NCBI GenBank assembly: GCA_017627275.1
Contig: JAGAHC010000018.1
Span: 1 to 37,219, forward strand
Reading direction: 5' to 3'
Length of the DNA: 37,219 nt
Origin: Lachnospiraceae bacterium
Lineage (GTDB): Bacteria; Bacillota; Clostridia; Lachnospirales; Lachnospiraceae
Shown one piece after another: positions 191 to 22,104 of this stretch. The translations under genes were made by a program, and so were the position numbers. The notes beneath the pieces are model-generated. The model searched no databases. It saw nothing but the letters and a program-made list of their open reading frames with translations, and had not been told where the DNA came from. How positions within the stretch are numbered: position 1 is the stretch's first letter; each line of letters begins with the position of its first letter.

Positions 191-1072
191 ATGGCAAGAC
201 GCAAATCCTCTGCAAAACGTAACTACAAGGACTCTGTATTTCGAAAGCTGTTCTCGGACAAGGAATCGCTGCTATCTCTTTATAATGCGGTGAACGAGAC
301 GAACTACGAGAGCACGGAAGGACTGCAGATCACCACACTGGACAATGCCATCTATATTCACATGAAGAATGATGTGTCGTTTGTCTTCCAGTCCCGGCTT
401 CAGCTTTACGAGCATCAGTCGACCATCAATCCGAACCTTCCGCTTCGAAATCTGTTTTATGCGGTGGATGTCCTCCACACCATCACCAGAGATTTCAACC
501 TCTACACCACGAAGTTGCAAAAAATACCTACACCGGGCTTTGTTGTGTTTTATAATGGAATCAAGGAGCAGCCTGATCGTTCCGTGCTTCGCCTGTCGGA
601 CCTGTTTGAGGTCCCGACGGACAGACCAGAACTGGAACTGACGGTGACGCAACTCAATATCAACGCGGGACACAACCGGGAACTGTTATCCCGCTGCAGG
701 ATACTCAACGAGTATGCCATGTTCAACGATAAGGTGCAGCGCTACTTGAGAGAGTCCGGAGACATCCAGAAAGCGGTGCCTAAAGCCATCGACGATTGCA
801 TTGAGGAGGGTGTGCTCACGGACTTCTTAAGCCGGGAGAAAGCGGAGGTAAAGGCCATGACGATTTATGAATTCAATCAGGAACAATATGACAGAGATTT
901 GCGCGAGGAGGGGCGTGAGGAAGGCCGCGAAGAAGGCCGCGAGGAAGGCCGTGCCGAAGAACGTCTGAACACCGAGCGGGAACGCAAGCGCGCGGAGGAA
1001 GCCGAAGCTCAGCTTGAAGCATCACAAGCCCTCCTGGAAAAATACAAAGCGCAGTTTGGTGAATTGCAATAG
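191..1072 (+). CDS. Rpn family recombination-promoting nuclease / putative transposase
   Basis: The 293-residue protein resembles the Rpn (PD-(D/E)XK nuclease / putative transposase) family of Clostridia. The core has an Asp at about residue 61 followed by LYEHQ (Glu74-x-Gln76), the D...ExQ pattern of this nuclease fold, then NPNLPLRNLFYA. From about residue 236 it becomes a charged tail: four EEGR units, then an Arg/Glu-rich coiled coil (NTERERKRAEEAEAQL). The start is well set: AAGGAGG ends 7 nt before the ATG. Known family members are DNA endonucleases linked to RecA-independent recombination and, in E. coli, to toxin-like phage defence. A good internal ribosome site at codon 223 may give a short C-terminal product. 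It is followed by a palindrome that likely ends transcription. Confidence 0.85.
   Translation: MARRKSSAKRNYKDSVFRKLFSDKESLLSLYNAVNETNYESTEGLQITTLDNAIYIHMKNDVSFVFQSRLQLYEHQSTINPNLPLRNLFYAVDVLHTITRDFNLYTTKLQKIPTPGFVVFYNGIKEQPDRSVLRLSDLFEVPTDRPELELTVTQLNINAGHNRELLSRCRILNEYAMFNDKVQRYLRESGDIQKAVPKAIDDCIEEGVLTDFLSREKAEVKAMTIYEFNQEQYDRDLREEGREEGREEGREEGRAEERLNTERERKRAEEAEAQLEASQALLEKYKAQFGELQ
844..1072 (+). other. Candidate intragenic start for short Rpn C-terminal protein
   Basis: Inside the rpn frame, GGAGGT (844-849) lies 7 nt before an in-frame ATG at 857-859 (codon 223). Translation from there would give about 71 residues: MTIYEFNQEQYDRDL, then the EEGR repeats and coiled coil, without the nuclease core. 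E. coli Rpn genes are reported to make such small C-terminal proteins from internal starts, which block the full-length toxin. The site is seen directly; its use is inference. Confidence 0.45.
905..952 (+). repeat. Four tandem 12-bp units coding EEGR
   Basis: Four in-frame 12-bp units of the type GAGGAAGGCCGC encode EEGR repeated four times in the Rpn tail. The paralogue at 21229 has only two full units at the same place. Because units are multiples of 3, gain or loss changes linker length without shifting frame. Confidence 0.8.
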
Positions 1073-1082
1073 ACTAATTAAC

Positions 1083-1116
1083 AGGAACCACTTTCCTCAG
1101 GGAAAGTGGTTCCTTT
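1083..1116. terminator. Palindromic repeat, likely bidirectional terminator
   Basis: A perfect 14-bp inverted repeat (AGGAACCACTTTCC at 1083-1096, complement at 1101-1114, loop TCAG) with a short T run on the plus side. It lies between the convergent rpn gene and the last gene of the pilus operon, so it is well placed to end both transcripts. It belongs to a dispersed palindrome family found at five other sites in the window. Confidence 0.65.
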
Positions 1117-1125
1117 GAATCTGTC

Positions 1126-3201
1126 TTATTCGAAGCGTCTGCGTCTCCTGAAGAGGATGACCAGGAAGAGAAGGAGGGCAGCGACGCCGGTGCCGCCCCA
1201 GAAGAGCATGTGGCTCGAGTCTCCGGTCGAGGAGCCGTCGCCGGTGATGACCTCCGCGATGGGCGGCGGAAGGATGTTAATGACTTCCTCCGCAATCGCC
1301 TTCGGGAGCGATGGCGGTTCTTCGGAAGAGCCGCCGCCGGACGGCTTCTTGTCGTCTTTGACGTGCGGCTGGTAGAGGATGGTGACGGACAGTCCGTACT
1401 CGTCCACCGCGCGGATGAGACAAGGCTGCGGGTCGCCCACGAAGTCCTTGTTCGGGTTGAAGACCACGTTAATCTTGCCGTTTGCAAGGTCGGAGATCTT
1501 CAGGGTATAGGTGCCGATCTTCTTGCCGTTCTTATCGAGGGCATCGATCGTCAGCTTGTCCGTCGTTTTGCCGAGGTTCCTCTTCGTCTTGTCATAGGGG
1601 TTCACGGAATAGGGATCCACGAACTGGATACTGACGAATTTCCCGTCGCCCTTCTTGAAGCCTAAGGTCGTTACGGAATCGTCGGAGTTCTGCTGTCTGC
1701 CCTTGGGCCCCCAGGTCTCGGCGTCGGTTCCGGTCGGGGGATTGACGCTTGTCACGTGCGGCTGGTACTTTGCTTCCGCCGTGCTGTTATCCGAAGCCGT
1801 CGCCCTGATCCTCGCGGGCTGCGGGTCGCCGACGAAATCCGGATCCGGGCGGAAGATGATGCGGACCTTGCCCGTCACCTTGTCGACTTCCGCGACCTCG
1901 TATTCGCCGATCTTGTTGCCGCTTGCATCGAGCGCCGGCACCTTCTTGCCGGGCGTCGCCGGCTCAAATGAATCGGTGTCCGGATTATAGATATCAATGT
2001 CCGTGATTTCCACACCCTCCGCCGTAAACCCAACGGTGCCCGTGTTGGAGTCGTCACTATCCTGGCTCTCGCCTTTCTTGCCCCAGGTCTCCGCATCGGT
2101 CGCGGTCAACGACCCGGTGTGAGGCGTGTATTTTGCCGTGGCGGCATTGTGCTGTCTGGGACTTGTCTGCTTGTTCTTTACTGTCAGGATCGCAGGGTCG
2201 GGCGTCCCGGTATAGTCCGGGTTCGGCGTAAAGAGAACAGTCACCTTCTTCTCGCCGTCCGCGCCGGTCGTTACCTGCAATCTGTATGTACCAACCTGCT
2301 CCCCGTTCTCGTACGCGGGGATCACAGGATTCGCGTCGTTCTCACTGCAACTGTCGCCTGCGCCGTTTTTCCCATTGTTCATGGTCACGACGTACTCGTT
2401 GCTCTTTTTATTCGAAGAATCGATCGTGTCCTTGATCGGTTTGTTGTTCGCGCTGTCCGTCTCGTCCTTTTCGCGCAGGAAAGGATGCGTCGGGTTGTGC
2501 TCTGTGCTGTTCTTTGAAGAGCTCCCCTTGGAAGGGTTGGCGTTGTGGTCAAAGCCGAGCTGGTCTTCGTTCGGTTTTGCCCAGGTCTCCGCGTCCTGCG
2601 GAATAATGTTTTCAAACTCACATCTATCAAACTTATAAGCATACGAGTCCGTGCCGTCCTGAATGGTCTCGTCGTCTCCGCCCGGCTGGCCGTAATCATA
2701 CTCTCCGGTAAAGATGGAAACGTACGCCGTCTTGCCGGAACCATCCGGTACCTCCTCGCTGAAAACGCGAAGCAGCACCTTGTATTCCGTCGTTTCAAAC
2801 CCGGCCTCGCTGTTCGGATCCTGCTTCACGATAAAGCAGTAATCGCCAGGCAAAACCGTGTCATCCAGGTTGAACTTGAACGACGTACTGCTGCCCGCCG
2901 CAACAGACTGGCTTGCCGGTGTCGCCGCATCCAGCTTTGCAAGCAGTTCTTCCGCCTTCTGCGCATTCGGCGCGGAAGGATCCGCCGTGATCGTTACCGT
3001 GCTGTCTATCCCATACACGCTGACCGGGATCTCCGGCTTGTCGATGGTCGTCTTCTGCGTGCTTGGGACCGTTTCCGCCCGCGCGGAAAGAGGCATCCCT
3101 GCGGAAAAAAGCATGGCAAGCACCAGGAGGCCTGTCAGTAGGCTTCTTAAAATCCCTGTCGTATGCTTTTGTATTCTGTTCTGCGTCTTTTGCAAATGCA
3201 T
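1126..3201 (-). CDS. Wall-anchored pilus base-like protein with CshA-type repeats
   Basis: The 691-residue secreted protein is the last gene of the pilus operon, 4 nt after the class B sortase. It has a signal peptide (hydrophobic run about residues 20-42, ending ARAE) and an N-terminal domain to about residue 210 that resembles small Spy0128/FctB-like pilin domains (DDTVLPGDYCFIVKQ, YKVLLRVFSEEV). Three CshA-type repeats follow, each opening with (T)DAETW and containing an F-x-P-(N/D)-x-D-(F/Y)-x-G core. After a Ser/Pro linker come TGDGSSTGDSS, a hydrophobic segment and RRRRRFE. There is no LPXTG; anchoring probably uses a TGD-type signal and a housekeeping sortase outside the window. The position equals that of FctB, the wall-anchoring pilin of streptococcal FCT islands. 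Four or more cysteines are present, unlike the backbone pilin. The base-pilin role is inference. Confidence 0.7.
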   Translation of the reverse strand: MHLQKTQNRIQKHTTGILRSLLTGLLVLAMLFSAGMPLSARAETVPSTQKTTIDKPEIPVSVYGIDSTVTITADPSAPNAQKAEELLAKLDAATPASQSVAAGSSTSFKFNLDDTVLPGDYCFIVKQDPNSEAGFETTEYKVLLRVFSEEVPDGSGKTAYVSIFTGEYDYGQPGGDDETIQDGTDSYAYKFDRCEFENIIPQDAETWAKPNEDQLGFDHNANPSKGSSSKNSTEHNPTHPFLREKDETDSANNKPIKDTIDSSNKKSNEYVVTMNNGKNGAGDSCSENDANPVIPAYENGEQVGTYRLQVTTGADGEKKVTVLFTPNPDYTGTPDPAILTVKNKQTSPRQHNAATAKYTPHTGSLTATDAETWGKKGESQDSDDSNTGTVGFTAEGVEITDIDIYNPDTDSFEPATPGKKVPALDASGNKIGEYEVAEVDKVTGKVRIIFRPDPDFVGDPQPARIRATASDNSTAEAKYQPHVTSVNPPTGTDAETWGPKGRQQNSDDSVTTLGFKKGDGKFVSIQFVDPYSVNPYDKTKRNLGKTTDKLTIDALDKNGKKIGTYTLKISDLANGKINVVFNPNKDFVGDPQPCLIRAVDEYGLSVTILYQPHVKDDKKPSGGGSSEEPPSLPKAIAEEVINILPPPIAEVITGDGSSTGDSSHMLFWGGTGVAALLLFLVILFRRRRRFE

Positions 3202-3205
3202 GTTC

Positions 3206-4033
3206 TTATTCTTCTATCGCCACGAATACAGCGGTCCGCTTCGTGGTCGTCGGTGATTTGCAGGTCGTAAGACCTACGATCCGTTTTGCTGTCCCGTCTT
3301 CTCTGTGACCGCCCTCCGCGTAATGGTCCGCGTTCTGTTCGAGGTACGAAAGCATCGCGCTGTGGTCCTCATAAATGTTGAACACCATGCTGTTGCTCGC
3401 GTCCGTCTGGAAAAAGGCGATCACGGTGATCGGGAATTCTCCCCGTTCGGTGATCAGCGTTCCGGTCCTGTGTTTGTCAAAATACGTTCTGTCCGCAAAG
3501 GCGTCCAGTGCTCCGAACATATACTGCCCGGACATGTGGTGGCCGTATACCACCGTATAATCGTCAGAAAAATCTTTCGCGTTGTTACTGTCCATAAAGA
3601 TCGCGCCCGCCAGAGAATACTCTCCGAACGCGTTCTTATTCAGGTACTCCCGGTTGTCCTCACCCTGCATGATGGGATAATCGATGTAGGTATCATCCAG
3701 CGTGATCCACGCAACCGCGTCCTCAGCGATCTGCTGCAGTCCCGCGATGTCCCCGTTCTCCGGCCTGTACGGCGCTACCGCCGCGGCGCGGGAATTGTAG
3801 AAGACGTACACGGAGTCATACATAAAGTACAAGCCGATCAGTAAAAGCAGAATAAAGACAATGTCCACGAACCGGTCTACCAGCCAGTCCGCTGTCCGTA
3901 CCGCCCGTTCTGCCGGCGTGTACGGGAGCGCTTCCGCGCCTCCCCCTTTGTCATGGAACCTGTGCGCGGCGGCGCTTCCACCGCCGCGCGCAGGATTGCT
4001 CCCATTTATTCTAAAGGTTTGTCTTTGAAACAT
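3206..4033 (-). CDS. srtB: Class B sortase (pilus polymerase candidate)
   Basis: The 275-residue membrane transpeptidase has one N-terminal anchor helix (about residues 52-74, DIVFILLLLIGLYFMYD) and an extracellular sortase barrel. Catalytic residues are visible: His165 in VVYGHHM, Cys258 in GLTTCKSPTTTKR and Arg266, with the Cys-to-Arg spacing of class B enzymes. It starts 33 nt after the backbone pilin and ends 4 nt before the base-like protein. In Streptococcus pyogenes a class B-type sortase encoded in the FCT island polymerises the FctA/Spy0128 pilin at a VPTG motif; the pilin here ends IPTG, which fits. The N-terminal 45 cytoplasmic residues are Gly/Ala/Arg-rich and unusual. The ribosome site is weak, so the exact start is uncertain. 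Confidence 0.9.
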   Translation of the reverse strand: MFQRQTFRINGSNPARGGGSAAAHRFHDKGGGAEALPYTPAERAVRTADWLVDRFVDIVFILLLLIGLYFMYDSVYVFYNSRAAAVAPYRPENGDIAGLQQIAEDAVAWITLDDTYIDYPIMQGEDNREYLNKNAFGEYSLAGAIFMDSNNAKDFSDDYTVVYGHHMSGQYMFGALDAFADRTYFDKHRTGTLITERGEFPITVIAFFQTDASNSMVFNIYEDHSAMLSYLEQNADHYAEGGHREDGTAKRIVGLTTCKSPTTTKRTAVFVAIEE

Positions 4034-4066
4034 GGATTACTTGCTGTAAAACTCTCTGTCAGTCGA

Positions 4067-5941
4067 TCAATAGTCTTCTCTTCTGCCGCGAAGCAGGAAG
4101 TATGCCGCCGCCAGGATGACCATCAGAGCGCCGCCGCCGATGCTGACGAGCACGCCGGTCGGGATGACGCCGTCGCGCTTGTTGGTGACACCGGTGTAGA
4201 TGTCTTCATCTTCAGAATATCTGTCTCCGGTCCACTCAGTCGTATAAGTATCTTCTTTGTACGGCTTATTGTCCGCAGGATTGATATAGAGCTGTTTGTA
4301 AGTATCGCCGTCTTTGTACTTGTCTCCTGCGGCATCCTTGACATATGTCTTTGTTGATTTATTACCTACTTCTCCGGTCAGGGGATCCTTGTGGGCGTTC
4401 GTGATCTCTTCATTATCAATAACACCGACTGCTACATCCGTTCCATTGGTCTTGGTATAGCCGGTCGCCGGATCCGTTTCCTGGACGGTGTAGGTCACAC
4501 CGTTCGGGATACCCTTGATCTGGACGTACTGCCCATGCTGAAGATAGAGTTCCCATTCGAGAGTTTCTTTTGTCTCTACAACAAGGTAGTTTGTGGAAGT
4601 AGTGCCGTTCTTTGCAGCAGTAAATGCTTCCGTGACATCCGCGAGGTCACCCTTATCCGTAGCATAAGCTGCTTTCGTGTTTGCATTTTTCATATCCGTC
4701 GCATCATAAGAAGTTGCGGCATTCTTGGTCGGATCAAAGAAGTGCGCAGCGTTTGCAGGGTTGGTGGAAGTGTATGCGCCAACGTTCACCTCAAACTTGG
4801 TTCCTTTTTCAAGGTCCGCATTTGTAAGTGTCACCTTGAACTTGAACCACTGGTCTCTGGAGCCCTGGTTGCCTTCGACCTTTTTGCCGAATTCCAGATC
4901 CTGCGTGCCGTAGTCGTTCACAAACTCGCTGGACTTGTCGCCGGCTTCCGCGCCGTTCGGTGTCAGTTCTTTGGATGTAAAGCCTTTCATGGCAGCCTTG
5001 GCTGCAGCCCAAGTGGTATAGGGTGTGCCGTCAATGGTTACGCTGCCGGTGGAAGCTGCCGGAGGCTCCGCAATGGTTTCACCTGAGTCTGTCCAGGTTG
5101 TGCCACCATCTTCTGTGGTCTGAACTTTCCAAGTATTATTGCTGACATAAACATATTTTTTGTTCGTGTTGCTTGCATCTGTCCATTCAACACCCCAGGC
5201 GTTCTCGTCTGCAGCATCAGCTGTATGGTCCGGTGCAACTGTTGTAGCACGCTTCGTCTCATACCAGACATAACCGGATACTGCAAGGTTGCCCTCGCCG
5301 TTGTCGGTAACATACACATCCAGCGTTCTCCAGGTGGAGTTGTTCGCGTTCACGTCATAGGTGATACCAAGATCGCTGTAGGTCGTGCCGTTCTTTTCCT
5401 GTACGTAGTAACGGTACACGCCGGGCTCCGCGAACTTAATGGCGGAGAAATCAAGCGTGATCTGCTTCTTCACGTACTTTTCGTTTGCGGTCGCAATGTC
5501 AGCCTTCCCTGTTCTGTAAGGGCCGGCTGTTGTCGTGTCTGTCGGCTGGAATACAAGTTCCCCGATATTCGCCGCCACTGCAGGATCTTCTACAGCCACT
5601 GGCGTTACAACGACCTTATCCGGGCGGACACCCTTCCAGACGACCGGTGTGACGTCTGCAGAACCAGATGTCGGCTGAATGAGCGCGACCGGATAGATCT
5701 CCTCGTTGGCCGCATCGCTCGCGGGATTTCCCGTTGCCCCATCCGAAGTCACCTCGAACAGGAAGTCCGCGTACGGGACCTGTGCGTCCTTGTCCATGAC
5801 AAGGTACTTGTCAAAATTGGTGGTGGTTCCGGTTGCCTCTACGATTGGATCATTCGCGTCATACTTCTCGGCAAATACCGGTACGACGGTCAATGCTGCC
5901 AGCACGACTGCCGTAAACAATGCCAAAAATCTTTTCTTCAT
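4067..5941 (-). CDS. Spy0128/FctA-type major pilin, IPTG sorting signal
   Basis: The 624-residue precursor has a clear signal peptide (MKKRFLALFTAVVLAAL...VFAE). The N-terminal half matches Spy0128-type pilins (TTTNFDKYLVMDKDAQVP, ITLDFSAIKFAEPGVYRYYV), with a Lys, a Glu-containing strand and Asn positions expected for an intramolecular isopeptide bond. A second pilin domain starts near residue 345 with FGKKVEGNQGSRDQWFKFKV, nearly repeated in the giant adhesin. Between them (about residues 215-335) is an insert ending in TPYTTWAAAKAAM, one copy of the repeat expanded in the adhesin. The C terminus is NKRDGVIPTGV, a helix, then RGRREDY. I see no cysteine. AGAAAGGAAAGG precedes the ATG. The likely role is the covalently polymerised shaft subunit. 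Confidence 0.88.
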   Translation of the reverse strand: MKKRFLALFTAVVLAALTVVPVFAEKYDANDPIVEATGTTTNFDKYLVMDKDAQVPYADFLFEVTSDGATGNPASDAANEEIYPVALIQPTSGSADVTPVVWKGVRPDKVVVTPVAVEDPAVAANIGELVFQPTDTTTAGPYRTGKADIATANEKYVKKQITLDFSAIKFAEPGVYRYYVQEKNGTTYSDLGITYDVNANNSTWRTLDVYVTDNGEGNLAVSGYVWYETKRATTVAPDHTADAADENAWGVEWTDASNTNKKYVYVSNNTWKVQTTEDGGTTWTDSGETIAEPPAASTGSVTIDGTPYTTWAAAKAAMKGFTSKELTPNGAEAGDKSSEFVNDYGTQDLEFGKKVEGNQGSRDQWFKFKVTLTNADLEKGTKFEVNVGAYTSTNPANAAHFFDPTKNAATSYDATDMKNANTKAAYATDKGDLADVTEAFTAAKNGTTSTNYLVVETKETLEWELYLQHGQYVQIKGIPNGVTYTVQETDPATGYTKTNGTDVAVGVIDNEEITNAHKDPLTGEVGNKSTKTYVKDAAGDKYKDGDTYKQLYINPADNKPYKEDTYTTEWTGDRYSEDEDIYTGVTNKRDGVIPTGVLVSIGGGALMVILAAAYFLLRGRREDY

Positions 5942-6008
5942 GACAAACCTTTCCTTTCTGTGTTTTGTCTTGTTGCCTATCTATATCAAAAGCCGTATGG
6001 CTTGTTTT

Positions 6009-6800
6009 CTAAAAGCCTCTCCGCCGCAGCTGCAGCACAACCTTCCCCTTCAGTTCCGATACCGGGCCGAAGGACCGGGAGTCCACCGCCTCCTCACGCT
6101 GGTCGCAGAGGAGAAATACTTCGCCCTCTCCGACGGTGTACGGGTAGGTGATAACCGGATCCTGCGGGAGCGTCTGGTAAAACACCACCTCGTAGGGGTT
6201 CAGGCCGTTCACGGTGTAACCGCCCTCCGCCGGGAAATCGATCGTGTCGCCCGCGATCGCCACAACACGCCCGAAGGTCGTCATACCGTCCCGCTCGAAA
6301 GCCACGATGTCGCCGTTGTAATAGCCACCGAGGCGGTAGGTGATGCAGAGGTCACCGTCGCGGACTGCCGGGTACATGTTGTTGTCATGGGCGACGAATA
6401 CGCCGCCGACGATCTGCGTAAGGACGAATACCAGCGCTGCGATGAAGGCTACCTTGATAACGAGCCGCAGGATCTGGTCCCTCAAAGAGCGTCGTCTGCG
6501 GGGTCTTCGTTTTGCTGCCCCCGGATCGTTTTCGGTCAGTTCCTTTCCGTCCGCTTCCTTCCCGGCCGGACCCTTTTCCCCAATTCTTTTCCGGGACTTT
6601 GCCGCACCGCCCTGTCTTGCGCGGTGCGCCTTCCTGCGTTCCGCCGGCGTCAGCGCCTTCTTTCCCTTATGCTGTTGTCCGTCTTGCCCGGATCCGTCAT
6701 CCGCTTCCGGCGAAGCCGGAGCGTCCGGTGTATCTTCTCCGAAAATATCGAAAAAATCCGGTTCGTCCTGCGGGGCAGGACGCTTTTTTCTTACGTCCAT
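6009..6800 (-). CDS. SipA-like inactive signal peptidase I homologue for pilus assembly
   Basis: The 263-residue protein has the signal peptidase I (S26) layout: one membrane helix (about 111-133), box B as HDNNMYPAVRDGD, and box D as TFGRVVAIAGDTID. The serine expected just before Met142 is Asn141, and the lysine expected just before Arg178 is Gly177, so the Ser/Lys dyad is missing. Streptococcal SipA, essential for FCT pilus polymerisation, is reported to have Asp and Gly at these sites, so this is more likely an assembly factor than a protease. An unusual cytoplasmic N-terminal extension of about 110 residues is first acidic, then very basic (RRPRRRRSLRD). The start codon overlaps the end of the adhesin gene by 10 nt, implying coupled translation. 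Confidence 0.82.
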   Translation of the reverse strand: MDVRKKRPAPQDEPDFFDIFGEDTPDAPASPEADDGSGQDGQQHKGKKALTPAERRKAHRARQGGAAKSRKRIGEKGPAGKEADGKELTENDPGAAKRRPRRRRSLRDQILRLVIKVAFIAALVFVLTQIVGGVFVAHDNNMYPAVRDGDLCITYRLGGYYNGDIVAFERDGMTTFGRVVAIAGDTIDFPAEGGYTVNGLNPYEVVFYQTLPQDPVITYPYTVGEGEVFLLCDQREEAVDSRSFGPVSELKGKVVLQLRRRGF

Positions 6801-9800
6801 TCTTCTATCTCAAAGTCATCGCCGACGCTGAAGTCCTCCGCGGCATCCGCTATCTCGTCCACGTCGTCCGGCGCAAATTCGACAAAGTAGAATTCATCGG
6901 CATTCAGAATATCCTCGGAGGTCTCTTTCGCCGCCCTGAAATACTGTGCGTTATAAAACGCCTCTGCCTCCATGTCATCTGCATAAAGGCCTGCTGCCGC
7001 CCTGCTTCCCGTACCATACCCTTCCGCATACACGAAGTTCCTCCTGCGTCTGCGCATATAGAAGTGCGCGTACAGCAGGATCAGCATAAGCGGTCCCATG
7101 AGTCCGATCCACGGGTTCAGTCGGACTTCGGTCGGAACGGTGCCCTCTGACCGGTTGGTGAAGGTAATCTCCGTGGCGTGCTGGAAGAAATTGTCTCCAA
7201 CCATGTTCGAATTATCACCAAATGGAATATCATATCCGCCGTCGGTGGACGTGTAATCGGAAGTCCACCATTCGCCCGTCGTCATATCCGCAGTTAATTC
7301 GTCCACATCTAAAATTTCATTATGCTCTATCGGACCCGTGAAATCCGTGATCGGATAATAGTTTTCATTGGTTTCCGTTATTTCGTAGGACGCACCAAAC
7401 GGCAGATCGCGGATCGTCACGCTCTCGCCATGCTGGAGATAGACATAGATCGTGGCCTTGCCGTCAGTGCCGGTCTTAATGTGCTGCCCGTGCGCAAAGG
7501 TGCGGGTGGCCACGTCGATCGGTTCTTTCCCTTCCGCAAGCGGCGTGGTGGAGTCACCCGCGTAGGTGACCCAGCCTTCTTCGTTATCCCACTGAGAACG
7601 GTACGTCACATCGTCAGAATCGTCCCCCGGTGTTTCATTGTCGTCGACCCAGGTCCACTCGCAGGTTCTCTTCTGATCATCTGTGGCATTTCCGTAGGTC
7701 AGATTAGCGTCGTCATCGCGGGTATTTCCACCTTCGTTACCGCTGCCGCTCAAGATCACATTGCGAGTATAGATCGTGGCCCCGTTCGGCACCTTCGTGC
7801 CGTCCGCACCGGTTTCAAATGACGTCGTGGCATCAGACATATCCAGGTGCAGCGTACGCTCACCCGCGTTTGCGATCTCGATCTTAAATTTGAAATACTT
7901 GTCGCGGGATCCCTGGTTGCCGGTCACTTCCTTCTCGATCGTGAGCGGCACCTTAATCCTGTCGTTTAAGAAGCTGTGCGTGACCGTATTAACAGTCTCC
8001 AGGACATCATCAACACCAACAAACATATCTTCTGTTGTAATTTTATCTCCGTTAATGGCAACCAGCTTCCAGCCTTCTTCGACGAGACTGCCATCTGTAT
8101 CCTCAAGCTCCCAGATTTTGTAGTGGCTACCATATGGAAGAGTGATAAGTGCATGTTTCTCGTTTGAATTCGTACTGTTATCCAACCAGAACTCAAAGGT
8201 GGTGGTCTCGATATCCAGCTTCGTGGTGCTGGTCGTTGTACCACCTGAGGTGGTCGTCGTGGTAGTGAACTTATAGTTCATGCCATCCATATCGGTGAAT
8301 TCCTGTGGATATACGATGTTGAACGTAGGAATTTCGGTATTGTTTTTGTAGGCCTTCCAGACCTTCTCTCCGCTGACAGTTTCTTCCGTCATTTTATAAA
8401 CGTCACTGCCCACCGTGTATTTATATTCGGTATAAGTGTCATTGACTTCTACGTTTGTGACAGTCGCCGTACTTGCGGATTTTCCATCCGGATAGATGCG
8501 GGCAAAGCTAATCAGACTATCCGCCTGGTTAACTACGTCTGTATTCTTAACCACACGGCCTGTCATCATGCGGAATTTGAATTTTCCGCTGTCGTCGGAT
8601 ACTGTCTTTTTCTCAACCTTAACGACGCCCTTTTGACGCTCGTTGGTGAAGGTAGCCTTTCGATCCTCGTACGGTTTTTTCGTGACCGCAACTATTGCTG
8701 CCTTTTCGGCAATATACTTGGAATCGTAGACAGCAGGCAGTGTATAGGTCGCGCTGCTTCCCGAACCGGAGGTCTGAACCAGGTTCTCTGCTGCAGCCTT
8801 CGCCGCGGCATAGGTCGTTTTTTTCTGACGATTCACAGTGAAAGTGCTATCATCGTTTGCGGTGATAGTCGCAATTCCTACCGCTTCCGCCTCTGCCGCA
8901 GACAGGGAAGGATATGTATTGCTTTTATATGTATAGGCATGGTTCTCATCACTACCCGTTTCTTCAACATCAGCAAGGGCCAGCGGCTTAATCAGCATAT
9001 ATGTTTCAGATACGTTCGTATTGCCTTGATTATCCACGTATCTATACTTAATGACGCCGTCATCATCGAACTCTTCGATGTCCGCGAGAGCCTTATTCTC
9101 CACCGCCTCGCGAGTATAGTAAGGACTTCCGTTATAGGAGTAGGTGTTGTCACTATTCTTGCCGCTGATAACTTCGGCAACTACAGCATTATAAGCTGCA
9201 TCATAATTCTGATAATTACTATCGCTGTATTTCCATGTGTTGTCGTGGTTCCTGATGATAGCTGCCTCTACCGCAGCGTCCCTGTCGGTATAAACGGCAT
9301 TGTTTGTATAAACCGTGTTGCCGGAAACCGTGTTTTCTGCAACTGCACTCTTTGCTGCATTTACAGCCGCAGCGTAGGTTTGATACTCCCCTCCGTTGTA
9401 AAGCCAAATCTCGCTTAGCTGCCCGCTGTTGTCATTTTTCTGATCCATTTTGCCGGTGTCGTTGACCTTGCTCTTAAGATTCCATCCGGTCGGCAGCGTC
9501 TCAGTAATCTCATAGGAAACTCCAAGCGGAAGATCATTGAATGTAATCTTCTCCCCGTTTCGGAGTTTGAAATTATATGTACCATTTGCGCCGGTCACAC
9601 CATCCGGAAGCTGTTTCGGATAGGTGATCCCGTTTTTGGTTTCTGCAGCTGTCCTCAGGGTATATGGCTCGCCCGTTTTGACATAGAATTTTACGGTGTA
9701 CTCAAAGACGCCCGGCTCGTTGTCCTCCGTCTTTTTTTCAATGACGAGATCCCGGGTATCCATAATATTCGTGATATTGTAAACAATCTGACCGGTTTCA

Positions 9801-12800
9801 GTTGTGGTCTCGTATTCAACCTTGTGGTAATACTTCGGAATAATGGTTTCTTCCACGCCTAACACCTCATCGCTGTGAGCGATGTTAAATTCGTATATCC
9901 ATTCGCCGGCGGCATCATCTTTTTCGAAATCATCCGGGTCTGTGTATGTACGTTCATACGGAACGTTTACCGCAGGATATGCTGTATACTGTCCGGTATT
10001 TCCCTCTACGGCATCTATTACGTAGTCACCCGCAGGTAGCAGTGTCCCGACGGCTGTGTTAAGATGGACTCTCCTCGGTGCATAGGTCGATATGTCCGTA
10101 ATGCCATCAGATGCTTTCAACTCCGGAATGATGGTAGATCCCTCATATAGATCCCGCACCGCATAAAACGCAGTCTGCTGCTCAGCCGTACCTACGATGT
10201 CCGTCAGTACTGCGGGTCCCGTCTGTTTCCATCGGGTATAACTATCCATGGCGGTTACAGTTATACCCAGTGAAGCCTTATCCGAAGGTCTTTCACTCAT
10301 ATAGGCATTGTTACTTGCATCGTTTTCCCAGGTCTTGATCACGCGCAACGGATCGTTTTTAGCGTTGAGGAATGACGCTTCTTTGTCCTTGTTCAGTAGT
10401 CCTGTGGTGTTGCTCTCGGAGATCAGTGACCAACCGTCTACCGGGGTTTCGGTAACGCTGTATCGTATGCCGGCAGGGAGCTCCAGTTCAATCTCACCAG
10501 GCGGAGTCAGTATGAATTGGTATGTTCCCGGAGCGGTGCGCGTCAAAGAGCCATCGAGAAGTTTCGGATGGTTGTTCGGCAAATCGTATTTATTACTCTC
10601 CGTTATCGCCCAAAGTGTTAGCGTGAATGTGAACTTCTCGCTGGTAGCCGGATTTGATATTTTTTCTACTTTCAGTTTGTATTTCTTCCTGGTGTTGGTC
10701 AGGGTCGTAACGGACTTTGCAGTCGCGCCATGCGCGGGGTTATCTTCCGTCCCTATGCCGGCGCCCAGGTCCGTCATCGTTCCCTCCGCGTCCGTTTGCG
10801 TGGTCTTGCTCAAGGTGTAATAAGGAGAATAAGAATCCGAGAGTTTTTCCCAGACTTTCCAGCTGCTGTCTGCGGGCACCTCAAATTCATACACCCAGGT
10901 GTTGCCGCTGGGGTCGGTCTCATCCACGTCGTGTACTCGCGTCTGGATAATAGCTTCTGCCGAGTTGAAGAAATCGGCCTGCGTATCGGTCGGCTTTTCT
11001 GAGGAAGACTGGCTGTCATGCGTTGAGGCAACATTGTTGTATGACCCACCTGTATCGCTCCACGTACCCGGTCTCGCTGTAAAGACCGGAAGATTTACGT
11101 ACTGATTGCCTACCAAAGCGCTTCCGTTATTGGAGTTTTGGAACATACTGCCAAAGTTCGTACAAAGTCCCGGATCCCAGCCTTCGGCAAGCGCCGTCTG
11201 CTCGCTCAGAGCAGCCTTAGTGCTTGCAAACGCCTGGTTAAACGTAGTCACGCGCGTAACGTCCCATCCCGCAATATCGGAGAGGTCTTGGACGCTTGTG
11301 TTATAAAATATCTGCTGCATGTTCGTGACATTCCGCGTCTCCCAGCCGCTTAAGGGGCTCAGATCACTAAGCGCCATGCGGGAATAACCTCTGAAGGTTT
11401 GTAGCATGCTTGTAACACTTGCCGTATTCCAGCCTGCAAGCGGCCCTAAATCAGCAAGCGACCCGCAGTCATAGAATGTCCGATACAGGTTTGTTACATA
11501 ATCCGTATTAACATGCTCCAGGGCGCTGATGTTATTTAATTGCGTACAGGACGCGAATAGCTGTGCGAGCGTTCCCGTGAGGTAGATTTCCGCGTCACTA
11601 TAGAGATAGAGCTCCGTGCCCTCTTTCCAAACATAAACAGGCGTGTCGCCATAGGTATTTGTCACTGTGATCTTTCCGCTTGCCGCCTCCGCCTGCGCTT
11701 TCGTCCCCCATTTAAAGGCGGTCAGCTGGTTTTGCATCGCGTTTTGTCCGCCGTAAGCGTTATGCAGGGCCGATCTAAACGTCGTGCCGTCTACGCCGGC
11801 GACATCTCGCTGGATATATATGTTGATATTATTGGGACGGATATTGTCGGAATCCTCTTCCCATACTTTCTTGACTGTCAGGGTCTCATCAGGATTTGTA
11901 TCCTTTTTTCTCTTGTTGACGAAAGTGGCTTTGGCAAAGGGATCGTCCGTAGTGAGCTTGCCGCTTTTCACCGTGGAACCGACAGGCGTCCAGCCTTCCA
12001 GCGTGCCGTATTTTCCGCTTACCTCTACTTCTTGCACTTCATACTCAAAGTCAAAAGGAATAACGCCGGGCGGGATGCTGATAGTCTCGTAGCTGTCCAG
12101 CGTGAACTGATAAAGGCCGCTTCCGAGACTCGTAAAGCGGGACGCCAGAGAACCCATCGTGGCAGCGTCCGTGAAATCCACAAAATCATCGGTTCCATCT
12201 TCGTCAGGGTCGCCCCAGGCTTTGATGGTAAAGGTAAAAGTGTCGTCCGTTGAGCCGGAGCCGGCGACCGCTTTTCTGATGTCGAGAGCAGTCTGCACCC
12301 AGACGACATGGATGGCGTTGTCGGAATGGATCCCTTCAAAGGTATAGGTGTACCGGTCGATCACGCCGTCGCCGTCATCGTCGAAGGCTTCATAGGTGTT
12401 GCCTGTTCCGTCGCCCTCTTTGATCTTCGTTTTTGTATTCATCTGATCAATGGACGGGAAATCATCCGGGTTGGTCTTGTCCGGATCGTTCCAGACATAG
12501 ACGTCCTTCAAGGCATATCCCGGTTTCGGAGTAAAGGTATATACGATGGTCTGGCCCACGGCAGAAGCCACCATGGATGGGTTGATGATCTGGCCGTCAT
12601 TTAATTCGCCGTTATGGTTACCCTCACGGGTGGTCTGGATGGTGCCACCCTTGGTACCGTCGCTCTCGGGCTGTCCGTTACGATCCAGGGTCTCGGTGCT
12701 ATGGCGCAGGCGGTAGTTGTATTCGCCGCCGAGCATCGCAGCAGTAAACAGCGATCCAAAATTATTTCCACCGCTTGTTCTGACCGTCATCTTGAACTGC

Positions 12801-15439
12801 CCGTTCTGCACCAGCGCAAGGAATCCGGAATAGAATGTGTTATTGTCACCCTGCTTCGTTCCTACCGTGTACGCCCCGTCGTCGTATGTGATTACCGCTT
12901 TATAGTTCCCGTCTGCACCTGGGATATACATTCTGTCGCCGCTGGAATTGATGACGAGTCCGTCTTTTACCCGTACGGATTCGCTGTAGTTGTCTGAGGT
13001 CGGGTCATAATTGTCGAGCAGCGGATTGCCCTGGTAAAAGCCTGCAAATTTACCATTGGTAGTTCTGCTAACATCCAGGTCGGACATGGGGAAATACATC
13101 TTGACATCGATGAGATTACCGCTTTTATCCTTGATGTAAGGCTTGGCGTCGATCTGAAGGCCGTAGCGCTGCACCAGACCTCCGCCGGTAAGTGTCTTCG
13201 CACCGGGCGTGATCACGTTTCCTCCGAACAGACCGACATAATAATTGTTCAATGAGACAAGCTGGCTGGGATCCGTCACATTTGCAGCATTGGTCTGCCC
13301 CTGAGGGACGCTGTTCATCTGAGCATCCAGCAGGGGCTGGATTGTGATCATCGGGTTGGAATATTCGATATAGACGTCCAGGTATTCCTCTGTGCCGTCG
13401 TCCTTTAAACGCACGGCGGCGTTCTCCCATTTGTAGGTGCCCACCGTGCCTTCAAAATAGTTGTAGGATTGATAGACGGTTACCCCGTCGCTTGTTCTGG
13501 TTGTGGCAGCATAGCCATCCAGCGCATCGACGGTGGAATCGTAGTAAACGAAGTGTTTGCCTGATTTATTTGAGCCTTTGCTAATGCCCTCGTTGACAGG
13601 ATAGTCCTCCTTAAAAGCGGGGTTATACTTTGGGCTGGAGGGATCCATCAGTTCTCCAGGGATAAACTCATCCCAGTTTCCATTTACATAATTCTCGGTG
13701 GGATCTGACCATAATTTGTCTTGAGAATCGATCCAAACGTCCGCCACAGGGATCAGCGGCGCGAAGTTGGTCAGGTTCTCTCCCTGCGCCAGCCCCGGGA
13801 TGTTGACGTCCGTGCCGTCGCCCATGATGGCGTCAGTGACGATGATGTGATAGGTCGTGCCGTCCTCCATGAGGACGTCCAGCCACTCTTCGGTGGTGAA
13901 AGGCTGGTAAGAGGCGAGCCAGCGGACACTGCCCTCGGGGTCATTTATGGCAATGTAGGGCGCAAAGACCTTGCCGATGTTTTCTTCGTCGACTTCTTCG
14001 CTCGTTTCCCCTTCAGCTGCCGTGTCGGATCCTTCGGCGGCGCCTTCCTCGACTGCTCCTTCCGTTTCACCGGCGGTCTCCTCGGAAGTCTCCCCTTCGC
14101 TGCCCGTGCCTTCCGGCGCATAGATATACACAAAGCGCGGTCCCTCTTCCTTGCCCATGACGACATTAAAGAGTTCCGGCGCGCTGACGGTGGTGCCCTT
14201 GACCTTGCCTTCGATGCCGATTTCCGCCAGCAGGTCATCCAATCTGATAACGCCGTCGCCGTCGAGGACGTACTGCTTGTCCCCGTAGGTGAATTCCACG
14301 GTATAGTAGGAGAAGGCTGTCGTTTCGACCGTCGCGATCTGCTCCGCGGGCGCGGGAGATTCATTCGCGACGTGCTCCGGTGTATCGACGATATCGAGCG
14401 GCTGCGCCGTGAACGCCTTTTCGCTCAGCGGCTGCTCCTGCGCGGCCTTTTCGCCGGTCTCGATATCTGTTTCTTCTATATGATAGACGCGTGTATTGTA
14501 GTTGCTGTTCGCGACCTCCGGCATGGAGAAGGAGACGCGGACCTTGCTCTCGTCCGCGGGCTGGAGCTCAGTTCCCTCCGCATCCAGGATCTTGATATCA
14601 AAGGTGTAGGAGACCGCGACGTTCTTCTCCGTGCGGACTTCGCTGATGGCTTCTTCGATCTTCTCAAGGACTTCTTCGGAACCCTCCGCCTTCTCGTCCT
14701 CGACTTCTTCGATCGCCGGCGCAAGGACCGCTATCTTTTCCACGGAAAGCGTCGCGCCTTCCGGGAAGGTGCCCTCATCGGCATCGACATGGACGATGAC
14801 GTCGTCAAACGCGACGTTCCCGCTGAACGCAGGCATCGCAAGGGCTTCCGGCTCCGTCTCTTCTTCCGTGAGCTCTGTGTCTTCTTCTAAAAGTTCTTCC
14901 GGGATTTCTTCTATGATTTCCTCTACAGGGATTTCTTCTGTCTGACCTTCTTCCGGCGTCCCTTCCGGATTCTCCGGAATGGTCTCGCTTTCGGACGTCG
15001 TTCCTTCTGTCGGCGTGTCCGTTGTCTCTCCGGTCGTGCCGGTTGTATCCGTTGTCGTGCCTGTAGTGTTACCGCTCTCTGCGTCCGGCTGCGTCGTCTG
15101 CTCTGTTGTGCCGCTATCGGTCGCTGCCGTATCCGTCCCCGCCGTGCTGCCTGCCGCGGCGTCCTGTGTCTGCGTCTCTGTTGTCTGTGTATCGCCGCCC
15201 TGTTCCGTTGTACTTTCGACCGAAGTCGTTTCCTGTGAAGAGGTTTCCTGCACAGGTGCTTCCTGCGTAGCAGAAACGCCGGCAGCTTCCGGTGTAACCG
15301 GGATGCTTTCCGTAGCGAACGCAACGCTCTGCGATGACAACGCAACAACCAGCGCCAGTAAGAACGCAGTCAGCCTCATCACTCTATGTTGGTTTTTTCT
15401 TTTTCCAAATCTCAACATACTGCTCTTATTTTTCTCCAC
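6791..15439 (-). CDS. Giant multi-domain pilus-tip adhesin (2882 aa)
   Basis: First gene of the pilus operon. Visible layout: signal peptide (ends near AFATE, residue 43); Thr/Ser/Glu/Gln-rich stalk to about 205; N-terminal domains (NVAFDDVIVHVDADEG onward); a module at about 865-1057 shared with the 978-aa protein; FctA-like and Cna B-type domains starting near 1050, 1182, 1584, 1697, 1895, 2270 and 2495 (for example EVTGNQGSRDKYFKFKI); a BspA/DUF285-type leucine-rich block at about 1273-1436; eight degenerate units of about 29 residues at 2015-2253; and a C-terminal TVPTE, helix and RRRRRN. A highly acidic tail of about 80 residues follows on the cytoplasmic side, which is unusual. The start is uncertain: GTG at 15439 and ATG at 15418 both lack a well-placed ribosome site. 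It holds the position of Cpa in FCT islands. Confidence 0.85.
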   Translation of the reverse strand: MEKNKSSMLRFGKRKNQHRVMRLTAFLLALVVALSSQSVAFATESIPVTPEAAGVSATQEAPVQETSSQETTSVESTTEQGGDTQTTETQTQDAAAGSTAGTDTAATDSGTTEQTTQPDAESGNTTGTTTDTTGTTGETTDTPTEGTTSESETIPENPEGTPEEGQTEEIPVEEIIEEIPEELLEEDTELTEEETEPEALAMPAFSGNVAFDDVIVHVDADEGTFPEGATLSVEKIAVLAPAIEEVEDEKAEGSEEVLEKIEEAISEVRTEKNVAVSYTFDIKILDAEGTELQPADESKVRVSFSMPEVANSNYNTRVYHIEETDIETGEKAAQEQPLSEKAFTAQPLDIVDTPEHVANESPAPAEQIATVETTAFSYYTVEFTYGDKQYVLDGDGVIRLDDLLAEIGIEGKVKGTTVSAPELFNVVMGKEEGPRFVYIYAPEGTGSEGETSEETAGETEGAVEEGAAEGSDTAAEGETSEEVDEENIGKVFAPYIAINDPEGSVRWLASYQPFTTEEWLDVLMEDGTTYHIIVTDAIMGDGTDVNIPGLAQGENLTNFAPLIPVADVWIDSQDKLWSDPTENYVNGNWDEFIPGELMDPSSPKYNPAFKEDYPVNEGISKGSNKSGKHFVYYDSTVDALDGYAATTRTSDGVTVYQSYNYFEGTVGTYKWENAAVRLKDDGTEEYLDVYIEYSNPMITIQPLLDAQMNSVPQGQTNAANVTDPSQLVSLNNYYVGLFGGNVITPGAKTLTGGGLVQRYGLQIDAKPYIKDKSGNLIDVKMYFPMSDLDVSRTTNGKFAGFYQGNPLLDNYDPTSDNYSESVRVKDGLVINSSGDRMYIPGADGNYKAVITYDDGAYTVGTKQGDNNTFYSGFLALVQNGQFKMTVRTSGGNNFGSLFTAAMLGGEYNYRLRHSTETLDRNGQPESDGTKGGTIQTTREGNHNGELNDGQIINPSMVASAVGQTIVYTFTPKPGYALKDVYVWNDPDKTNPDDFPSIDQMNTKTKIKEGDGTGNTYEAFDDDGDGVIDRYTYTFEGIHSDNAIHVVWVQTALDIRKAVAGSGSTDDTFTFTIKAWGDPDEDGTDDFVDFTDAATMGSLASRFTSLGSGLYQFTLDSYETISIPPGVIPFDFEYEVQEVEVSGKYGTLEGWTPVGSTVKSGKLTTDDPFAKATFVNKRKKDTNPDETLTVKKVWEEDSDNIRPNNINIYIQRDVAGVDGTTFRSALHNAYGGQNAMQNQLTAFKWGTKAQAEAASGKITVTNTYGDTPVYVWKEGTELYLYSDAEIYLTGTLAQLFASCTQLNNISALEHVNTDYVTNLYRTFYDCGSLADLGPLAGWNTASVTSMLQTFRGYSRMALSDLSPLSGWETRNVTNMQQIFYNTSVQDLSDIAGWDVTRVTTFNQAFASTKAALSEQTALAEGWDPGLCTNFGSMFQNSNNGSALVGNQYVNLPVFTARPGTWSDTGGSYNNVASTHDSQSSSEKPTDTQADFFNSAEAIIQTRVHDVDETDPSGNTWVYEFEVPADSSWKVWEKLSDSYSPYYTLSKTTQTDAEGTMTDLGAGIGTEDNPAHGATAKSVTTLTNTRKKYKLKVEKISNPATSEKFTFTLTLWAITESNKYDLPNNHPKLLDGSLTRTAPGTYQFILTPPGEIELELPAGIRYSVTETPVDGWSLISESNTTGLLNKDKEASFLNAKNDPLRVIKTWENDASNNAYMSERPSDKASLGITVTAMDSYTRWKQTGPAVLTDIVGTAEQQTAFYAVRDLYEGSTIIPELKASDGITDISTYAPRRVHLNTAVGTLLPAGDYVIDAVEGNTGQYTAYPAVNVPYERTYTDPDDFEKDDAAGEWIYEFNIAHSDEVLGVEETIIPKYYHKVEYETTTETGQIVYNITNIMDTRDLVIEKKTEDNEPGVFEYTVKFYVKTGEPYTLRTAAETKNGITYPKQLPDGVTGANGTYNFKLRNGEKITFNDLPLGVSYEITETLPTGWNLKSKVNDTGKMDQKNDNSGQLSEIWLYNGGEYQTYAAAVNAAKSAVAENTVSGNTVYTNNAVYTDRDAAVEAAIIRNHDNTWKYSDSNYQNYDAAYNAVVAEVISGKNSDNTYSYNGSPYYTREAVENKALADIEEFDDDGVIKYRYVDNQGNTNVSETYMLIKPLALADVEETGSDENHAYTYKSNTYPSLSAAEAEAVGIATITANDDSTFTVNRQKKTTYAAAKAAAENLVQTSGSGSSATYTLPAVYDSKYIAEKAAIVAVTKKPYEDRKATFTNERQKGVVKVEKKTVSDDSGKFKFRMMTGRVVKNTDVVNQADSLISFARIYPDGKSASTATVTNVEVNDTYTEYKYTVGSDVYKMTEETVSGEKVWKAYKNNTEIPTFNIVYPQEFTDMDGMNYKFTTTTTTSGGTTTSTTKLDIETTTFEFWLDNSTNSNEKHALITLPYGSHYKIWELEDTDGSLVEEGWKLVAINGDKITTEDMFVGVDDVLETVNTVTHSFLNDRIKVPLTIEKEVTGNQGSRDKYFKFKIEIANAGERTLHLDMSDATTSFETGADGTKVPNGATIYTRNVILSGSGNEGGNTRDDDANLTYGNATDDQKRTCEWTWVDDNETPGDDSDDVTYRSQWDNEEGWVTYAGDSTTPLAEGKEPIDVATRTFAHGQHIKTGTDGKATIYVYLQHGESVTIRDLPFGASYEITETNENYYPITDFTGPIEHNEILDVDELTADMTTGEWWTSDYTSTDGGYDIPFGDNSNMVGDNFFQHATEITFTNRSEGTVPTEVRLNPWIGLMGPLMLILLYAHFYMRRRRRNFVYAEGYGTGSRAAAGLYADDMEAEAFYNAQYFRAAKETSEDILNADEFYFVEFAPDDVDEIADAAEDFSVGDDFEIEEWT

Positions 15440-15684: not shown

Positions 15685-15713
15685 AATGTATATTAATTCT
15701 ATATTTTTGTAAA
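15685..15713 (-). promoter_or_regulatory. Putative sigma-A promoter of pilus operon
   Basis: Read on the minus strand, TTTACA (15708-15713) is followed after 17 bp by TACATT (15685-15690) in very AT-rich DNA. It lies about 240 nt upstream of the adhesin gene. The 978-aa surface protein gene has a similar TTTACA promoter candidate. Assignment by eye only. Confidence 0.45.
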
Positions 15714-15731: not shown

Positions 15732-16376
15732 TTAGCGGCGGAAACCTGCCCGGAAAATCTCCCGCAGTTCTTCTTTTTGCTCCTCGGTAAGAGGCAGATG
15801 CGGGTCGTCCCCCATTGCCGGGAGAGCGCCCTGGTGGTCATAGACGATCTCACCATCTTTAATATAGAAGATATGGGGCACATAGAGATGCCGGATCCCA
15901 TTGTTGTCGTACTCCAGACATTCGCCGAAGTACTCCGCAAAAAGGTCATAATCCGTTATGTCAAGATTGCTCTGCCAGGAGGGGTCTTTGCGGGTGTTGA
16001 GGCTGCCGACTTTGACGCCGGCTTCGAGCGCCGCGTCATTCACGTAGCGGATCGTCGCGTTGCACCAGGGGCAGTCCGGGAACGAGGTGAGCACCGCAAA
16101 GGTCTCTCCCCTGTCCATGAGCTCCAGGACGTCCTTCACCGTCATGTCAACGAAAACCGTCTCCTTGTCGTAGTCGGCAAGGCCCGCGTAGCCGGACATG
16201 TCCGCTTTCGGAAACTGCGCGAGGGGATCTTCTGCCGGAGTTTCCTCTTCGGCCTGCGGTGTCTCCTGCTGCTGGCTTTGCTGCGCGCCTTGCTGCGCGT
16301 TCGTCCCTGCGCAGCCGGAAGCTGCAAGAAGCAGGACGAACAGAATAGCCGACGCGAGTACAATTTTTTTACTCAT
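15732..16376 (-). CDS. Thioredoxin-fold lipoprotein (CPWC)
   Basis: The 214-residue protein has a lipoprotein signal with lipobox LLAASGC (Cys22), so it is tethered outside the membrane. A Gln/Glu/Pro-rich linker runs to about residue 55, and a thioredoxin-like domain follows. The redox motif is FPDCPWCN; YVPHIFYIKDGEIV carries the expected cis-proline strand. It probably oxidises or reduces thiols of exported proteins; the two large surface proteins and the base-like pilin nearby contain cysteines, whereas the backbone pilin does not. It starts 15 nt after the ATPase gene and ends about 290 nt before the adhesin start, so it may be cotranscribed with the former. The substrate is unknown. The ribosome site (GGGAA) is weak. 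Confidence 0.75.
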   Translation of the reverse strand: MSKKIVLASAILFVLLLAASGCAGTNAQQGAQQSQQQETPQAEEETPAEDPLAQFPKADMSGYAGLADYDKETVFVDMTVKDVLELMDRGETFAVLTSFPDCPWCNATIRYVNDAALEAGVKVGSLNTRKDPSWQSNLDITDYDLFAEYFGECLEYDNNGIRHLYVPHIFYIKDGEIVYDHQGALPAMGDDPHLPLTEEQKEELREIFRAGFRR

Positions 16377-20990: not shown

Positions 20991-21023
20991 AGGAACCACT
21001 TTCTTCTGAAGAAAGTGGTTCCT
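20991..21023. repeat. Dispersed palindrome, copy 2
   Basis: A perfect 33-nt palindrome: AGGAACCACTTTCTTC, a central T, then its complement. It lies between the divergent 978-aa surface protein gene and the second rpn gene. The outer bases match the copy at 1083; the centre matches the copy at 29909. Confidence 0.8.
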
Positions 21024-21079
21024 GTTGACCTTCCTTCATGGGAGTGCTATTCTCACTTCACTAACTGCGCTCAGCCGCA

Positions 21080-21228
21080 ATCCAAACCGGCTACGCAGTG
21101 TCAAGACAAGTCTTTCGTGGAATTCTCCACATCCATTCCTTGCTTGACGAAACTTGATAACAGGCAGGGAGAAAGTTGTCTTCCTGTCTCATCGGCATCT
21201 GTTCCAGATGCAGAACAGGAGGAAGTCT
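21080..21228 (+). promoter_or_regulatory. Structured 5' leader of rpn gene (copy 2)
   Basis: It matches the leader at 1-190 from ATCCAAACCGG to the ribosome site, minus the extra hairpin of copy 1. Pairings: outer stem 21097-21105 with 21143-21148 plus 21152-21154 (same GAA bulge); 21117-21121/21126-21130; 21163-21171/21180-21188; 21195-21201/21205-21211. The last hairpin (GCATCTG/CAGATGC) replaces GTGCCG/CGGCAC of copy 1 yet sits at the same 5-nt distance from AGGAGG. Changed bases with kept pairing argue for a selected structure. Confidence 0.6.
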
Positions 21229-22081: not shown

Positions 22082-22104
22082 TTCAAACAATTTCATATAC
22101 AAAT

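Follow-up and report, generated by a model that had tools for sequence, protein, structure and literature searches.

We analyzed a window of 37,219 nt (i.e., the whole stretch of DNA studied here) from the genome of a Lachnospiraceae bacterium. ORF calling revealed five intact, co-directional, and nearly contiguous genes on the minus strand, encoding a giant putative tip adhesin (2882 aa; 6791..15439), a SipA/LepA-like pseudo-signal peptidase (263 aa; 6009..6800), an FctA-like major pilin (624 aa; 4067..5941), a class B pilus sortase (275 aa; 3206..4033), and a predicted basal pilin (691 aa; 1126..3201). The original prediction had placed five minus-strand genes in this order, and the ORF calls agreed with it in order and coordinates, with none of the genes interrupted. 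The predicted spacing was also reproduced on remeasurement: the adhesin and sipA genes overlap by 10 nt, and the gaps that follow are 67, 33, and 4 nt. The succession of adhesin, SipA/LepA, FctA, class B sortase, and FctB on one strand is the order that we take, as did the original prediction, to define the FCT-2/3/4 operons.

Between the base gene and a convergent gene (191-1072), we found an inverted repeat (1071..1126; 26-nt arms, 85% complementary, separated by 4 nt). It is possibly a terminator common to both genes, and it was absent from the terminator-like sites predicted in the region. Upstream of the adhesin gene lies a promoter-like TTTACA-17-TACATT sequence (15685..15713, minus strand; 9/12 matches), a kind of site that was not enriched in the region (13 versus 11.7 in shuffles). 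Nra/RofA/MsmR regulators are described as adjoining the pilus operon in GAS islands. None was present among the Pfam matches of the scanned subset of window ORFs; past the base gene, the contig continues for just 1.1 kb. A FUR-family gene (28068-28484) was the only regulator-type exception among the scanned window genes (Pfam). The minus-strand gene at 15732-16376, also upstream of the adhesin gene, encodes a lipoprotein-like product with a CPWC motif (both recognized by eye); its thioredoxin-like match was weak (0.0041, well short of the cut-off), and it is a possible thiol-redox protein.

The major pilin was assigned from families, a PDB profile search, and alignments. Its sole Pfam match was DUF7601, a CnaB-like isopeptide domain according to a 2025 survey (PMC12617251). 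The TIGR03786 pilin domain fell just below its cut-off (31.2 versus 31.85 bits), and Pfam FctA (PF12892) was not among the matches up to an E value of 0.1. A single-sequence search of the PDB (phmmer) matched the T18.1 backbone pilin (8f70; 3.6e-12), and a profile of eight pilins (the window pilin and seven from fetched loci) matched T18.1 (8f70; 5.9e-37), T13 (6bbt; 8.7e-24), and Spy0128 (3b2m; 3.3e-20). Six residues that were invariant in all eight pilins make up two putative isopeptide triads, K45/E182/N342 and K353/E488/N587, which align with the two Lys-Glu-Asn triads of Spy0128. The pilin is therefore predicted to contain two CnaB-like domains, each with a Lys-Glu-Asn triad. K336, P594, and T595 were likewise invariant in the eight aligned rows, and in a 13-row alignment the key residues remained invariant or at least 90% conserved. 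The sorting signal, IPTG, occupies residues 593-596. As the sole listed invariant lysine outside the triads, K336 is the best candidate for the polymerizing lysine; it lies six residues before the isopeptide Asn, versus seven for K161 of Spy0128 (ungapped reading of the profile alignment). With a profile reaching the T18.1 and Spy0128 backbones and with the triads and IPTG kept, the predicted FctA-like pilin was upheld.

The SipA-like protein, assigned from families, PDB matches, and an alignment, matched Peptidase_S26 (Pfam) and, above the cut-off, signal peptidase I (TIGR02227). Against the PDB, SipA (4n31; 1.3e-25) and LepA (4k8w; 4.8e-23) were matched strongly, and signal peptidase I at just 0.0039. 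The catalytic sites are replaced, by Asn141 at the Ser site and by Gly177 at the Lys site; S. pyogenes SipA has Asp48 and Gly85 at the two dyad positions (PMC4049620). Among 18 SipA homologues (window included), the Lys was missing in all 18 and the Ser in 14. This agrees with the SipA-like assignment made earlier, namely, a signal-peptidase homologue without the Ser/Lys dyad whose nearest solved relatives are SipA and LepA. The SipA genes of four loci (L056, L063, L064, and L065) have kept the Ser and lost the Lys of the dyad; these homologues are perhaps intermediates in the loss of activity.

The sortase was assigned from TIGR03064, the PDB, and an alignment. It scored 154.3 bits against TIGR03064 (class B; cut-off, 153.75), and its best PDB match was 3psq (4.6e-38), presumably Spy0129, with weaker matches to 4y4q (7.8e-29) and to the NPQTN sortase 1qx6 (1.7e-22). 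His165, Cys258, and Arg266 were kept in 22/22 aligned sortases. Both the score over the cut-off and the presence of the His/Cys/Arg residues bear out the predicted class B sortase. The genome encodes two sortases with PF04203, the pilus SrtB and one on another contig (C105). The C105 sortase is class-B-like too (33% identity to SrtB over 109 residues), so its proposed anchoring role is drawn solely from counts of sorting signals. Elsewhere in the genome, the last 169 residues of the adhesin matched only the end of the pilin, and weakly (0.0086). The last 56 residues of the base matched six other proteins of the genome, all with a TGD motif before a terminal span; four of these matches were weak (E values of 0.002 to 0.49) and were accepted with a visible motif. 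The set with TGD anchors includes a 978-aa protein of the window. The anchor signal of the base (TGDSS) is thus unlike the shaft and tip signals (IPTG and VPTE), and the occurrence of two kinds of signals and two sortases suggests that SrtB serves IPTG/VPTE and the C105 sortase serves TGD.

The base protein has three parts: an FctB domain (about residues 43-205), CshA repeats (about residues 206-616; three stretches of Pfam CshA_repeat), and a TGD-type anchor, TGDSSHMLFWGG, from residue 659. The presence of three CshA repeats is certain (2.8e-29, Pfam; 8.2e-27, TIGR families; 0.0021 for 6szc, PDB). An HMM of six small FctB-slot relatives, built with the window excluded, found the 691-aa protein at 3.2e-7. 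When its first 215 residues were aligned with 12 FctB-slot proteins, Lys190, which lies in the FctB domain, and F196 were invariant in 13/13 rows. The resulting 13-row profile (window included) matched the 8f70 pilin (1.6e-19), FctB3 (8k6t; 2e-19), and a pilus anchoring protein (3klq; 2.7e-19) in the PDB. The alignment thus points to an FctB Ig-like domain with a conserved last-strand lysine. The proline-rich tail typical of FctB is absent from the base; the CshA repeats stand there instead, between the FctB domain and the anchor, with a short Pro-containing stretch before the latter. From the FctB homology and the invariant lysine, we read the base as an FctB protein in which a CshA stalk replaces the tail. 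The original prediction of a base-like protein with CshA repeats was therefore correct for the repeats and too cautious for the rest, the protein being an FctB homologue with the conserved lysine. Seven FctB-slot proteins of other loci matched TIGR03786 (that of L060 below the cut-off), and none of these seven had a CshA match. A literature search, chiefly at the title and abstract level, returned no report of CshA repeats in pilus bases.

The adhesin was characterized from its ORF, Pfam/TIGR matches, and alignments. It begins with a signal peptide (recognized by eye) and a Thr/Glu-rich linker, followed by modules without a family match. Repeats of DUF285/PARCEL (best stretch, residues 1291-1410) and five stretches of DUF7601 were detected, and the C-terminal part resembles FctA domain 2. 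Homology of the protein to Cpa was considered and rejected, as no thioester domain was matched in Pfam up to an E value of 0.1 and no PDB entry up to 0.01. A VPTE motif (residues 2768-2771; 7127..7138) precedes a membrane span and RRRRR. Its context, TN-R-G-[IV]PT in TNRSEGTVPTE, resembles that of the IPTG signal in the pilin.

After RRRRR, the adhesin continues for 82 acidic residues (6794..7039; 23 D/E and 3 K/R), a tail that is predicted from the sequence to be cytoplasmic. We considered a frameshift as the origin of this tail and rejected it on the basis of codon usage, which favors the frame of the ORF: the last 95 codons (i.e., the tail and the 13 residues before it) scored 0.30 in frame, and the remaining two frames of that strand scored -0.47 and -0.60, under a model trained on six other window genes. 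For comparison, we counted the residues after the best span window in adhesin-like neighbors at the other 40 loci described below (ORFs that encode 600 aa or more and lie on the operon strand no farther than 1.5 kb from sipA/srtB/fctB matches). There were 89 such residues in the window adhesin versus 6 to 18 in 27 adhesin-like neighbors elsewhere. Nine ORFs were left out of this count, two because they were cut by locus ends and seven, probably nonadhesins, without a terminal span; a 779-aa ORF of L130, with its span far from the end, was one of these seven. A literature search at the title and abstract level yielded no report of long tails behind sorting signals. What is unusual at this locus is the CshA-stalked base, the VPTE signal on a giant adhesin, and the 82-residue acidic tail.

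We next consider the distribution of the system. A single-sequence search with the pilin gave no match in 40 relatives, 24 of them from the same genus, and matched 7 of 295 genomes of the order (own included). Among family genomes, the pilin profile matched 72 of 397, and among class genomes it matched 26 of 391 (own included in each); these counts are upper bounds because many of the weaker matches are stalk domains in long adhesin frames. Two relatives were found in named records, Ruminococcus and Clostridia MAGs. The SipA-FctA-SrtB-FctB order was present in 28 of 41 loci (window included), which were selected by pilin matches and are thus a nonrandom set; some of the 13 loci without the order are cut by contig ends. 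As the core mostly stays together, SipA, FctA, SrtB, and FctB travel as a unit, and there may be a wider set of which the streptococci form one branch. Of the 28 ordered loci, 13 had an adhesin-size gene upstream and 14 had one downstream, L064 and L132 having both (the rule, which takes any gene of 600 aa or more lying no farther than 400 nt away, admits some spurious ORFs). Other arrangements were also seen: two loci from same-family genomes (L123 and L125) have the order FctA-FctB-adhesin-SipA-SrtB, unlike FCT, and two FctA-SrtB-FctB loci (L019 and L131) had no SipA gene detected beside the pilin gene.

A CshA-stalked base was encoded by 3 of the 28 ordered loci (the window, L130, and L132). 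A profile of these three proteins, run against 397 family genomes, found the FctB-CshA fusion in the same three, one of them the own genome; in four further family genomes, the match was confined to either the FctB part or the CshA part. The single-sequence search with the base matched only its own genome among 391 class genomes. The fusion is a natural experiment on the length needed in the wall-spanning part of a pilus base. L132, from a genome (G807) of the same family and another genus, repeats the whole architecture. Its adhesin (2704 aa) has VPTE at the same position, DUF285 and DUF7601, and an 8-residue tail, and its base carries four CshA repeats. Identity to the window proteins was 54% for SipA, 53% for SrtB, 25% for FctA, and 30 to 37% for the base, and the two adhesins were alike in modules only. 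The assembly proteins are conserved, and the exposed proteins change fast.

The locus was then compared with known systems. With the S. pyogenes FCT-2/3/4 pilus (Cpa, SipA/LepA, FctA, SrtC of class B, and FctB), it shares all five roles and the gene order, as well as a dyad-less SipA, a class B sortase, an FctA with two Lys-Glu-Asn triads, the last-strand lysine of FctB, and a separate wall-anchoring signal on the base. It differs in its 2882-aa adhesin without a detected thioester domain, in its 691-aa base with three CshA repeats replacing the proline-rich tail, in its signals (VPTE/IPTG and TGDSS), and in the 82-aa adhesin tail. CshA-type fibrillar adhesins combine N-terminal adhesive CshA domains with a long repeat array. 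The base stalk has the repeat family in common with them (6szc; PF19076/TIGR04225), but it has just three repeats, and these stand behind an FctB domain. According to the portion of PMC8088525 available, the C. perfringens VR-10B pilus comprises CnaA, FimA, FimB, a signal peptidase, and a class B sortase, and its polymer was demonstrated by immunoblotting and electron microscopy. As described there, the resemblance of VR-10B to the window lies in a class-B-sortase operon that encodes a signal peptidase and three pilins, and in a second sortase B, whose gene adjoins the VR-10B operon. The VR-10B adhesin is CnaA, and CshA repeats are not mentioned in that portion of the source. Given that the streptococcal FCT-2/3/4 model covers every gene and that the VR-10B pilus is proven, this kind of system is already known, and the locus is a variant of a known pilus machine rather than a new machine. 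The gene order, families, and PDB matches support an FCT-like pilus operon in which the tip and base subunits are enlarged, as originally predicted. Of the further idea of a distinct version, the enlargement of tip and base stood, and the novelty of the layout outside streptococci did not, in view of VR-10B.

Judged from sequence comparisons, the five genes very probably specify a pilus of the streptococcal FCT-2/3/4 type that is assembled by a sortase and would work as follows. SrtB would cleave both substrates after the threonine of the sorting signal (VPT|E in the adhesin and IPT|G in the pilin) and would link that residue to a lysine of the next pilin, probably K336. The adhesin would thereby come to lie at the tip, and the shaft would consist of FctA subunits, each made rigid by two Lys-Asn isopeptide bonds. 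SipA, with its signal-peptidase fold without the dyad, would present or position the subunits. Growth would end with the attachment of the last pilin to Lys190 in the FctB domain of the base, and the base would be fixed to peptidoglycan via TGDSS by the C105 sortase, the one further sortase detected in the genome. The three CshA repeats, in place of the FctB linker, would serve as a wall-spanning stalk. We infer the polymerization, the acceptor lysines, the division of labor between the sortases, and the role of the stalk from this combination of features.

The CshA repeats of the base could instead serve in adhesion or in contact between cells and not as a wall spacer, as fibronectin binding is known for the adhesin CshA (PMC10952558) and as about 410 residues of repeats exceed the needs of a thin linker. 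Against this, the FctB linker at the corresponding position varies, being Pro- or Asn/Thr-rich in several ordinary FctB proteins and hardly present in others, which suggests a spacer of variable length. We consider the adhesive role rather unlikely and prefer the wall-spanning stalk.

It is also conceivable that the giant adhesin is not incorporated at all, its VPTE being dead and the span and the long tail keeping the protein in the membrane. The Glu in place of the usual Gly in VPTE would fit this, as would the length of the sequence past the span relative to that in the 27 adhesin-like neighbors of other loci. This reading appears improbable in light of L132, in which VPTE is kept at the same position in front of a short tail, and of the pilin of L018, in which IPTN replaces IPTG, so that the residue after the Thr evidently varies. 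Moreover, the overlap of the adhesin and sipA genes (10 nt here and 11 nt in L132) suggests a single transcript. For an adhesin that is cleaved and mounted at the tip, we also considered a function of the tail: the cleaved remnant with its cytosolic acidic tail might report tip mounting and tune pilus expression. This is highly speculative, and it is with equal reserve that such a reporter would be called an intracellular counterpart of the streptococcal adhesin C-peptide circuit. In S. gordonii, the remnant of a cleaved LPXTG adhesin signals via a histidine kinase, as cited in PMC11502775, and the C-peptide was dispensable in the species studied in that paper itself. If true, the adhesin tail would link pilus assembly to the cytosol.

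The 691-aa protein might instead be an independent CshA-type fibrillar adhesin that occupies the FctB slot, given that repeats dominate it and that its TGD anchor is of the kind common to other surface proteins of the genome. We regard this as quite improbable: an FctB domain, with its invariant lysine, forms the N-terminal part of the protein, the repeat was the only CshA domain matched in the Pfam/TIGR scans, the gene starts 4 nt after srtB, and the same fusion occupies the same slot in L132 and L130. Finally, that the sortase merely anchors separate surface proteins to the wall without forming a polymer, as known for class B sortases such as S. aureus SrtB (PMC3019223), is very improbable, because its nearest solved relative is 3psq rather than an anchoring SrtB, because the operon also encodes a SipA lacking the dyad, a pilin with two triads and one further invariant lysine, and an FctB domain whose lysine is invariant, and because C. 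perfringens VR-10B, with the same set of roles, makes pili (PMC8088525).

The surroundings of the operon showed several further features. Two plus-strand genes of 293 aa each (191-1072 and 21154-22035) flank the region of surface genes. The gene at 21154-22035 matched PDDEXK_2, and that at 191-1072 had no Pfam match. In DNA, their leader and 3'-end stretches are 79 to 83% alike, and the proteins align at the C-terminus only; they look like what we take to be Rpn-type genes with swapped nuclease domains. An arm of the hairpin at 1071-1126 recurs in inverted form at 21006-21026. Within the flanked region, a minus-strand gene (17912-20848) encodes the 978-aa surface protein mentioned above, with Cna_B, a CshA repeat, Muc_B2, and an anchor, ATGDSSRMALWGG, whose type matches that of the pilus base. 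Farther on, a plus-strand T-box leader (22099-22339; 113.5 bits) precedes leuA, leuC, leuD, and leuB-type genes (Pfam). The leuC beside the operon was matched in 33 of the 41 genomes of the genus (own included), with identities of 85% in one (G002), 64 to 69% in 14, and 41 to 45% in the remaining 17. With mis-binning in mind, we take this pattern of identities to fit the genus, although it is no proof. No insertion site could be defined at the leu locus from six same-genus stretches, in which leuC/leuD lie beside other genes; these neighbors were ilvC-like or acetolactate-synthase-like (by eye).
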